Source: Rossellomorea marisflavi (GTDB taxonomy: Bacteria; Bacillota; Bacilli; Bacillales; Bacillaceae_B). From it: 64,000 bases of DNA. This document shows, piece after piece, positions 40,148 to 41,894 of the stretch. A model generated the notes under the pieces. That model was not told the DNA's origin, did not search any database, and was given only the letters and a program-made list of their open reading frames with translations. Each line of letters begins with the position of its first letter. The stretch's first letter is position 1. The stretch lies in contig NZ_CP081870.1 of assembly GCF_022170785.1 (NCBI RefSeq), positions 2,282,001 to 2,346,000 of the forward strand, in the 5' to 3' direction. The translations under genes were made by a program, and so were the position numbers.

Positions 40148-40326
40148 CTATATCTCCCCTTTATCTTATGATTAAGTCTACATCGCATAGGATTCTACAC
40201 ATTTCGGCAAAATCCTCCTTTATGCCGTTCCAATCACCCAGAAAATAGGACGTCAATATAAAACTGACCACCCTCCCGGATCGAAATACCCAAGAAAAAA
40301 TATAATTATAGGAATATTCAAAACGT

Positions 40327-40355
40327 TTGTTCTCCATTTATGATACCATTCTAAT
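40327..40355 (+). promoter_or_regulatory. Promoter of the RRNPP receptor gene
   Basis: TTGTTC and TCTAAT lie 17 nt apart, about 45 nt before the start codon. The preceding 40148-40320 region is AT-rich and contains no gene. Confidence 0.5.
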
Positions 40356-40400
40356 ACATCACCAGAACCTGCATCATTGAGGGAAAGAGGAGCTGATCAA

Positions 40401-41657
40401 ATGACCATCGGTTCTAAAATCCGCTTTCATCGACAGAAGCGTCAACTGACCCAGGAAGAATTATCAAAGGGGATTTTATCCGTTTCCTATCTTTCGAAAA
40501 TCGAAAACAATTCCATTTCCCCTTCACAGGAAATCATCGAACTCCTTTGTGAACGACTGGGAATCTCCAATCTGATGGATGACCATCGCGTCGTCCTGAA
40601 CAAACTGGAGAAATGGAATCGTCTGCTTTTATGGAATTCATTAGCGGAAGCAGACGAAATGAAGGCGTCTATCAAATTACAATTGGAGAACGTAGACGAA
40701 CTCACACCCCATCTCTACTATCAGATCCTTTGTTTCCGAGCCGATCTGATCCATCTCGACCTTAAAGCAGCACTTGCCCGATTAAACGCGATCCATAAGA
40801 GCTATACGGATATGACGGACCTATTGAAATTCTACTTCCATAAGTATCGGGGAAACTACTATTATCTACTGAACGAATACAGCAAGGCGGAGAATGAACT
40901 GAAAGAAGCCGAAACCTTCTATGTTACAGGGAACGTGGTGAACGAAGAAGAAAGGGCCGATTTGTATTACCTGTCAAGCCTGGTCAAGACCCGCTTGAAT
41001 CACTTTCGCCTCGCCCTGTACTATGGTGAAAAAGCACTGAACATCTTTCAAAGCGTCTATTTCCAGAAACGATGCGCAGAGGTCCACCTGCTTCTCGGGA
41101 TATGCTACAGGCGGATTGGATCCCTGGATGAGGCCAATAAGCATTATGAATGGGCCGGATATATTTCTGAAACCATCCGCTATACCCGTCTAAGGTCCAA
41201 GGTGGAACAGAACCTTGGATATATGAAGTCCCTATCCGGTGATAGCCAAGAGGCCATCCGTCACTTTTTGAGGAGCATCGATCTGAAAGGGACAGATGCG
41301 GAAGGTCAGCTGTATTCCATCCTCTCCCTCGTTAAGGAATATCATAAATTGAATCAGCAAAGGGAAATGACAGAGTGGCTGGATCGCGGCCTGGGCCTCT
41401 GCGGACGGGATCATCATCCTGCTAAATATTACGAGCTATGTTATTACCGGTATGCGTCGGAGGGATTCAGGGATGGGTTCGAGCCATTTATGAGGGATCA
41501 AGCCCTTCCGTTTTTCCATCGCCACGATATGAAGATTTTATATGCGACGTATTCTACACTTCTTGGTCAATATTACCAAGGGATGAGGAAATATAAAAAT
41601 GCCGCCTTTTATTTCAAAGAAGCCAATGACATCTATGAACAGATGGTATCTTTTTAG
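40401..41657 (+). CDS. RRNPP-family quorum-sensing regulator, NprR-like (HTH plus TPR)
   Basis: The 418-residue protein has an N-terminal Cro/XRE helix-turn-helix (IGSKIRFHRQKRQLTQEEL, then ILSVSYLSKIENN, residues 3-38). Tandem TPR helices follow (for example YLLNEYSKAENELKEAETFY, LALYYGEKALNIFQ and LGICYRRIGSLDEANKHYEW), up to the C terminus (YYQGMRKYKNAAFYFKEAND). This is the architecture of PlcR/NprR regulators, and the first 60 residues resemble NprR most. AGAGGAG lies 9 nt before the ATG. A small exported-peptide gene starts 11 nt after the stop, as in receptor-pheromone cassettes. Regulatory target and peptide recognition are inferred. Confidence 0.88.
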   Translation: MTIGSKIRFHRQKRQLTQEELSKGILSVSYLSKIENNSISPSQEIIELLCERLGISNLMDDHRVVLNKLEKWNRLLLWNSLAEADEMKASIKLQLENVDELTPHLYYQILCFRADLIHLDLKAALARLNAIHKSYTDMTDLLKFYFHKYRGNYYYLLNEYSKAENELKEAETFYVTGNVVNEEERADLYYLSSLVKTRLNHFRLALYYGEKALNIFQSVYFQKRCAEVHLLLGICYRRIGSLDEANKHYEWAGYISETIRYTRLRSKVEQNLGYMKSLSGDSQEAIRHFLRSIDLKGTDAEGQLYSILSLVKEYHKLNQQREMTEWLDRGLGLCGRDHHPAKYYELCYYRYASEGFRDGFEPFMRDQALPFFHRHDMKILYATYSTLLGQYYQGMRKYKNAAFYFKEANDIYEQMVSF

Positions 41658-41668
41658 GAGGTGAGAAT

Positions 41669-41785
41669 ATGAAGAAAGTGACATCCACCATCATCGCGAT
41701 CTGTCTGACATCCATGGCATTGACTGCAGTGGTCATCAACCAGATCAACGAAGAGGAATTTCCACCATTCAGCGTCAAACAATAA
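41669..41785 (+). CDS. Putative signalling propeptide (NprX/PapR-like), 38 residues
   Basis: An AGGAGGTGAG site overlaps the end of the receptor gene and precedes an ATG opening a 38-codon frame. The product starts MKKVTSTIIAICLTSMALTA, a lysine-led hydrophobic secretion signal. It ends in a short polar tail, NQINEEEFPPFSVKQ. Size, export signal, short C-terminal tail and position directly behind an NprR-like receptor match RRNPP pheromone precursors. The mature peptide would be a 5-8 residue piece of the tail, for example within EEFPPFSVKQ. A terminator follows at once. No sequence identity to NprX or PapR is claimed. Confidence 0.75.
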   Translation: MKKVTSTIIAICLTSMALTAVVINQINEEEFPPFSVKQ

Positions 41786-41793
41786 ACGTTCAT

Positions 41794-41833
41794 GAAATCC
41801 GTACCGGTGGACCCGGTGCGGATTTTCATTTTT
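41794..41833 (+). terminator. Intrinsic terminator of the receptor-peptide cassette
   Basis: AAATCCGTACCGG pairs with CCGGTGCGGATTT (one wobble or mismatch) and is followed by TCATTTTT. Confidence 0.75.
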
Positions 41834-41894
41834 GATGAAATTTTCTGAAGAAAAAGATATAGTAAGGAGGAGACATACATAAGGGGGAATCAAC

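Follow-up and report, generated by a model that had tools for sequence, protein, structure and literature searches.

A likely NprR-type peptide quorum-sensing pair in Rossellomorea marisflavi, probably under PlcR-like control

In Rossellomorea marisflavi, a gene for an HTH-TPR regulator is directly followed by a gene of 38 codons. Do the two form a peptide signalling pair and, if so, of which kind is it and what controls it? We studied this locus in a window of 64,000 nucleotides, meaning the whole stretch of DNA that was analyzed (contig 1 of genome G000, positions 2282001–2346000, within a genome of 4.31 Mb). In our view, the two genes are likely to constitute an NprR-type pair for peptide quorum sensing, within the RRNPP superfamily, that is probably controlled by a PlcR-like regulator.

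A receptor gene and a small coding gene in one unit

The receptor gene occupies positions 40401–41657 of the forward strand (ATG start, stop codon included) and encodes a protein of 418 aa with an HTH and TPRs, which by the comparisons given below belongs with the NprR-type RRNPP receptors. An AGGAGG ribosome-binding site (41656–41661, forward strand) overlaps the TAG stop of the receptor gene, and the ATG of the small gene (41669–41785, forward strand) lies 11 nt after that stop. The product of its 38 codons, MKKVTSTIIAICLTSMALTAVVINQINEEEFPPFSVKQ, has a leader consisting, by eye, of Lys and a hydrophobic stretch, followed by the tail EEEFPPFSVKQ. The unit is closed by an intrinsic terminator on the same strand, a stem-loop of 14 pairs at 41794–41826; the folding energy of 41783–41840 is −23.4 kcal/mol (z −4.1 against 200 shuffles). 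The preliminary description had proposed this arrangement of regulator, 38-codon gene with its own AGGAGG site and terminator as a cassette at 40327–41833, and the arrangement holds, except that 40327 lies in the promoter region and the coding sequence of the regulator begins at 40401. Upstream of it is a promoter-like site (40317–40344, forward strand; TTCAAA at 40317–40322, 16 nt, TATGAT at 40339–40344) with 9/12 matches, a weak site given that the region scanned holds 5 such sites against 3.8 expected. A scan for promoters of the sigma-A type gave no separate promoter for the peptide gene. The flanks consist of a divergent M24-family peptidase gene and, 3′ of the terminator, an M29 aminopeptidase gene. 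Upstream of the latter, the stretch at 41839–41853 (AATTTTCTGAAGAAA) is similar to the CodY box.

Receptor orthologues were found in 34/36 genomes of the genus at 45–98% identity (G000 itself apart); the 34 include G016, in which the receptor is split across two contigs. The closest named record found, Rossellomorea marisflavi JCM 11544, has a receptor of 98% identity. In all 34, the small gene is intact behind the receptor, starts with ATG, GTG or TTG 8–15 nt after the receptor stop, and has a Shine-Dalgarno motif. Genome G030 has no orthologue (best match 31%), and in G022 the receptor gene is cut down to approximately its last 78 codons, with the small gene intact. This last locus (L057, G022:C22:99523-101523), where the receptor is gone except for its 3′ end, represents a natural signal-without-receptor genotype; the promoter box at its receptor site has decayed, a downstream gene starting like the M29 gene is still in place, and a stretch similar to AATTTTCTGAAGAAA at window positions 41839–41853 is present as well.

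Sequence variation among the copies points to translation of the small gene. In the clade-A set of 29 copies (from 27 genus genomes with the receptor, from G022 and from one plasmid record), stops are found in 0/29 copies in frame 0 and in 29/29 and 24/29 copies in the other two frames. The stops or frameshifts in relatives that would have refuted the small gene were thus not seen. The third codon position is the most variable (column entropy 0.58/0.34/1.30 by codon position), and the pooled pS is 0.67 against a pN of 0.19. The small gene is real, coding and under purifying selection. The tail columns E, E, E or D, F, P, P, F or Y, and S are fixed or conservative in 29/29 copies; they are followed by one of S, V, T or G, after which come K (28/29) and L (22) or Q (6). 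In the seven genomes of clade B, whose receptors are 45–48% identical to that of the window, the tail has EDLPP followed by variable residues and comes directly after a classical A-x-A-like cut motif (VSA/QEEDLPP, AFA/SDEDLPP), whereas in clade A the hydrophobic stretch extends beyond the A-M-A motif. Plasmid record L058 (NZ_CP089998.1, a linear 690-kb 'plasmid' of Cytobacillus spongiae) lists no gene at the place of the small gene in its incomplete gene table. Its receptor sits on a zero-length branch next to that of genus genome G018 and its gene order is housekeeping-like, and the record may be a piece of chromosome or bear the wrong genus name.

The receptor and its putative signal peptide

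Several lines of comparison place the receptor. It scores 42.5 bits for Pfam HTH_3 (cut-off 23) and exceeds the cut-offs for TPR_12, TPR_2 and TPR_1, while RapH_N stays below its own (20.4 against 27). RRNPP receptors are described as proteins of 250–500 aa with peptide-binding TPRs (PMC10075063), a range that includes the 418-aa TPR protein of the window, and the small gene fits the companion criterion of an adjacent propeptide gene of 10–100 aa with a good ribosome-binding site. The single receptor sequence matched RapH (3.3e-10) and NprR (3.4e-10) in the PDB equally well, and PlcR was absent from its 22 matches. A profile of 20 receptors searched against PDB sequences gave NprR at 7.2e-37 and 3e-35 over positions 55–407, followed by Raps (2.5e-26 and weaker) and then by unrelated TPR proteins. 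An AlphaFold model built from four sequences was mediocre (mean pLDDT 74.7, pTM 0.62, residues 1–38 below 50); the first 25 Foldseek matches of this model were Rap and NprR chains (TM 0.35–0.44, rmsd 15–20 Å), with eukaryotic TPR proteins from rank 26, in superpositions that are loose over 50 rows (TM 0.34–0.44 by query length, rmsd 12–20 Å). Judged by these matches, the receptor is nearer to NprR than to Rap and is an RRNPP receptor of NprR type in the wide sense, in line with what had been proposed for it. Relatives of the receptor also appeared in 28 plasmid records and in 13 phage records, the latter all aligned at residues 68–352, none covering 80%, and annotated as Rap-type or hypothetical or left unannotated.

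The residues that would meet the peptide tell the same protein apart from NprR proper. The groove Asn by which RNPP receptors are known to pin the backbone of their peptide (PMC3601957) corresponds to N271, which is present in 33/33 aligned genus-clade receptors, in 8/8 relatives, and in NprR, RapH and Rap3T. The NprR residues R126, W167, H201, N306 and D309, which contact NprX (PMC4970707), correspond to L119, Y160, R198, G302 and Y305 in the window receptor. The binding mode of NprR is therefore not transferable to the window receptor, and such changes would be expected if the peptide differs. Indeed, the window tail EEEFPPFSVKQ contains no SKPDIVG-type pheromone. Since neither the peptide nor the contact residues agree with NprR-NprX proper, the pair is, on sequence grounds, distinct from it and a member of the known class with its own putative signal peptide.

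How the pair relates to described systems can be stated more closely. NprR-NprX of the Bacillus cereus group resembles it in the HTH and Rap-like TPR receptor, in the propeptide gene directly behind, in being the best PDB match and, as we read the window promoter, in PlcR-type control of the operon; it differs in the signal and the peptide contacts, and the neighbor in the window is the M29 aminopeptidase gene behind the terminator rather than nprA. PlcR-PapR, in which a receptor gene is likewise followed by a peptide gene, shares the RRNPP logic, and the window promoter has a box like the PlcR box, but the PlcR chain in the PDB has 293 aa whereas the window receptor has 418 aa and matches NprR and Rap. 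PlcR has five TPRs (PMC3519770), and a five-TPR receptor of about 285–300 aa, the PlcR-PapR trait, is not what this protein is. Rap-Phr shares the Rap-like TPR domain, but Raps are described as lacking an HTH (PMC9765709) and the window receptor has HTH_3. On a plasmid of Priestia koreensis FS-1, the small gene product SEEEFPEPTVAQVLI is encoded right behind a receptor of approximately 30% identity and ends in EEEFPEPT, sharing EEFP with the window tail and differing in the rest of the tail and in its plasmid location. RRNPP_detector reported two plasmid NprR-NprX systems in this strain (PMC10075063), and the pair is probably one of the two. Also at approximately 30% receptor identity, a Mesobacillus foraminis plasmid encodes a propeptide of 137 aa (L060:3263-3676) behind the receptor relative, with six copies of EE[L/F]PPPLAP; NprR propeptides with repeated mature units are known (PMC9765709, section 7).

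Both of these relatives lend support to the tail being the signal, and EEFPPFSVKQ would contain the active peptide, the core of which would be EFPPFS. Tails of other families read DEHPPPT, DHPDPTG, AEHPDP and EHPDPN, and some receptor relatives have a tail lacking an EEFP-like core, or the scan picked up no small gene behind them. The suggested new specificity is borne out insofar as the tail is unlike SKPDIVG and LPFEF and the NprX contacts are not conserved, and is qualified by the EEFP core in Priestia koreensis and the EE[L/F]PPPLAP unit in Mesobacillus foraminis. Covariation of tail and receptor was considered and dropped: the tails track the phylogeny of the receptors (clade A has VKQ in its two earliest branches and xKL inside them; support of the two deciding forks 85/94 and 83/84), so that covariation is inseparable from shared descent. 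We found no paper naming this pair, which may be among the systems tabulated in the supplement of RRNPP_detector (PMC10075063).

How the pair would work as a pheromone system, from export and maturation of the peptide to control by a PlcR-like regulator, is what we infer from these data, in the following form. Receptor and small gene would be expressed as one operon, and the small protein would be exported by means of its hydrophobic leader and cut outside the cell to a short peptide containing EFPPFS. This peptide would be taken up again, probably by an oligopeptide permease, lie along the TPR groove pinned by the invariant N271, and switch DNA binding by the receptor. The peptide-free receptor could also act on Spo0F as a Rap does.

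Two other readings concern the products themselves. The small gene product might be a microprotein that stays in the membrane, or the gene might serve translational coupling with the receptor, with no secreted pheromone in either case, and the long hydrophobic stretch (approximately 18 residues by eye) and the lack of a clear cut site in clade A are in keeping with this; but conservation is highest beyond the hydrophobic stretch, clade B has the classical cut motif right before the tail, the relative in Mesobacillus foraminis repeats the tail unit six times, and the receptors retain the peptide-anchoring Asn, and we regard this reading as quite improbable. It is also very unlikely, in our judgment, that the receptor is mainly a Rap-like Spo0F inhibitor under peptide control for which DNA binding is secondary. 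NprR is bifunctional (PMC4970707), and 33/33 aligned genus-clade receptors have W at the position of W79 and Y at that of Y223, with D (26) or E (7) at the position of D107. In the window receptor, the Spo0F contacts D107, Y118, E188 and Y223 correspond to E100, C111, R185 and Y220. The picture is mixed: W72, E100 and Y220 agree with NprR and C111 and R185 disagree, with F112 and E184 one column off; across the receptors, Y118 is replaced by C, L, M, F or T, and E188 by R or K. In addition, the HTH is seen in the aligned receptors (L031 and L057, cut at the N-terminus, give no row).

A promoter box shared with a PlcR-like regulator gene

Just upstream of the receptor operon lies a 19-bp box, TATAATTATAGGAATATTC (40301–40319, forward strand), with a 16-bp core of PlcR-box-like spacing. 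It is near-invariant upstream of clade-A receptors, where most of the surroundings are not alignable, and occurs with 0–1 mismatch upstream of the receptor in 34/34 receptor-bearing genus genomes; at ≤2 mismatches it is found in 34/36 genus genomes. It overlaps the weak −35 hexamer of the receptor operon, which puts the box center near −42 of the inferred start. This is a position typical of activators. We discarded a reading of the box as a −10 element, since anything from 32 to 211 nt separates it from the downstream gene.

The same box is found just before the gene for an HTH protein of about 290–295 aa. The G000 copy of this protein (291 aa) matches PlcR over its full length (6.7e-19) as well as Pfam RNPP_C (1.4e-14). 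The PlcR-like gene is present in 35/36 genus genomes, and in 34/34 genomes examined a box with 0–2 mismatches lies about 32–39 nt before its start. Using the merged pattern TATAAYTHTAGGMATATTY, we counted 73 exact sites in 36 genus genomes and 0 for the reversed pattern as control; 33 of them lie 100–211 nt before the receptor, 30 lie 32–52 nt and 5 lie 402–429 nt before the PlcR-like gene, and 5 are at other places, all counts that describe rather than test, since known sites had gone into the merged pattern. The loci outside the genus are an independent test of the link between the box and the PlcR-like gene. In the wider order, the exact box is present in 34/249 genomes, 26 of them outside the genus; at 17 of the 22 loci fetched from these 26, a gene with a PlcR-like N-terminus starts 20–44 nt downstream (16 identified by script motif and L175 by reading), and 5 have no PlcR-like gene at the box.

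Some features of the PlcR-like loci deserve mention in their own right. Behind the PlcR-like gene, we found few short frames and none with an evident leader (10 loci in one scan, and 23 of 30 loci parsed in another). Five PlcR-like HTH regulator genes stand in tandem at G000:C1:3616397-3620960, and at G000:C1:3907421 and similar sites a second copy of the box is present approximately 400 bp before the PlcR-like gene. At L105–L107, a second box lies 98–128 nt before a divergent small gene of 106–118 aa, which may be under the same control as the PlcR-like gene.

Whose box is it? Its presence before the receptor throughout the receptor-bearing genomes of the genus would also be expected if it were the receptor's own operator, with the PlcR-like gene as a target and not the controller. 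We consider such autoregulation unlikely, as the box is kept where the receptor is missing or broken: G022 has an exact box before its PlcR-like gene, whereas nothing at its receptor site matches even with 2 mismatches allowed, and G030 has the box with 1 mismatch at its PlcR-like gene. In G045, a genome outside the genus, the sole exact box is before the PlcR-like gene and none is at its NprR-type receptor. Moreover, the window box resembles the PlcR box TATGNAN4TNCATA (PMC3519770) in layout, length and outer letters, and a review describes nprR-nprX of B. thuringiensis as activated by PlcR, without autoregulation of nprR (PMC4147580). The sites in G030, G022 and G045 lead us to assign the box to the PlcR-like regulator, of which it is probably the operator. 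The PlcR-like regulator would then turn on the receptor operon and also bind the corresponding box in front of the gene that encodes it, resulting in a two-tier cascade like PlcR to nprR in B. thuringiensis. Consequently, the term 'self-contained' used for the cassette in the preliminary description is probably wrong, given that a PlcR-like regulator gene at another place in the genome has the promoter box too.

A bipartite element near NprR-type receptors outside the genus

A side result concerns DNA that NprR-type receptors themselves might recognize. The half-site TTTCCCAA lies within 250 bp upstream of 5/7 clade-B, 0/27 clade-A and 4/17 distant receptors, against 1.7% in shuffles; these counts exclude L057 and L031, whose matches lie far beyond 250 bp and with which they become 6/8 for clade B and 1/28 for clade A. 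As an inverted pair at a spacing of 40–60, it was found in 8/61 relatives at 22 sites, 18 of them at 43–45, and the reversed control gave 6 genomes with one or two sites each. The pair with spacing 43–45 occurs in 54/249 genomes of the order, with up to 9 per genome, compared with single matches in 2 genomes for the control. This bipartite inverted element, TTGGGAAA-N43-45-TTTCCCAA, is seen beside NprR-type receptor genes and secreted proteases (L196–L199, L201–L211, L225–L251). At 27 of the 47 sites in 42 fetched loci, many of which come from the same few genera and are not independent, a gene with a subtilase motif (a motif tag, not a profile) starts within 350 bp, and at 14 an HTH gene of 413–432 aa with the recognition-helix motif of the receptor does (receptors L227–L229 added by reading); the union is 31/47, with 8 further sites by other leader-like genes and 8 by neither. 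Of the subtilase candidates submitted to Pfam, 10/10 were S8, and the L198 protein was an M4 protease of thermolysin type; two further proteins tested were a PhoX and a protein with no Pfam family.

The element would thus be a candidate operator bound by NprR-type receptors, and its half-sites, 52 bp or approximately five helical turns apart, would suit a peptide-bound NprR tetramer. For NprR of B. thuringiensis, a 2014 review describes the precise DNA site as still to be determined (PMC4147580), and among the few papers listed for each we came across neither TTTCCCAA nor an NprR operator consensus, both weak tests of absence. In G000 there are 0 exact matches to the element, a search that also returned no target genes for the window receptor; the 64-kb window holds 14 matches at 3 mismatches with free spacing and none with fewer. 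The element with spacing 43–45 is in 0/9 genus genomes, and 3 genus sites of the wider-spacing search are at 49–50. A looser pattern, TTRGGAAA...TTTCCYAA, was dropped for the genus, where it is without signal because the reversed control (21/36 genomes) exceeds it (12/36). A possible exception in clade B is TTAGGAAA-N55-TTTCCCAA before the receptor in G028 and G033.

Taken together, these observations suggest a wider picture to which we give an even chance. Within the genus, the PlcR-like regulator would directly activate the NprR-type cassette through the shared 19-bp box, as a separately wired counterpart of PlcR to nprR; elsewhere in the order, NprR-type regulators would read the 60-bp TTGGGAAA-N44-TTTCCCAA in front of the genes for secreted subtilases and for a thermolysin-type protease as well as those for themselves, and the window clade would have lost or changed this operator and been rewired. 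The pair in the window is itself real and very probably a quorum-sensing pair of a known kind. It adds a genus-wide putative pherotype with an EEFPPFS core and a conserved receptor, which allows comparisons of peptide-receptor specificity with NprX and with the relatives sharing EEFP. The shared box makes control of an NprR type by a PlcR type testable beyond the B. cereus group, and the bipartite element offers a concrete candidate DNA site for NprR-type regulators.
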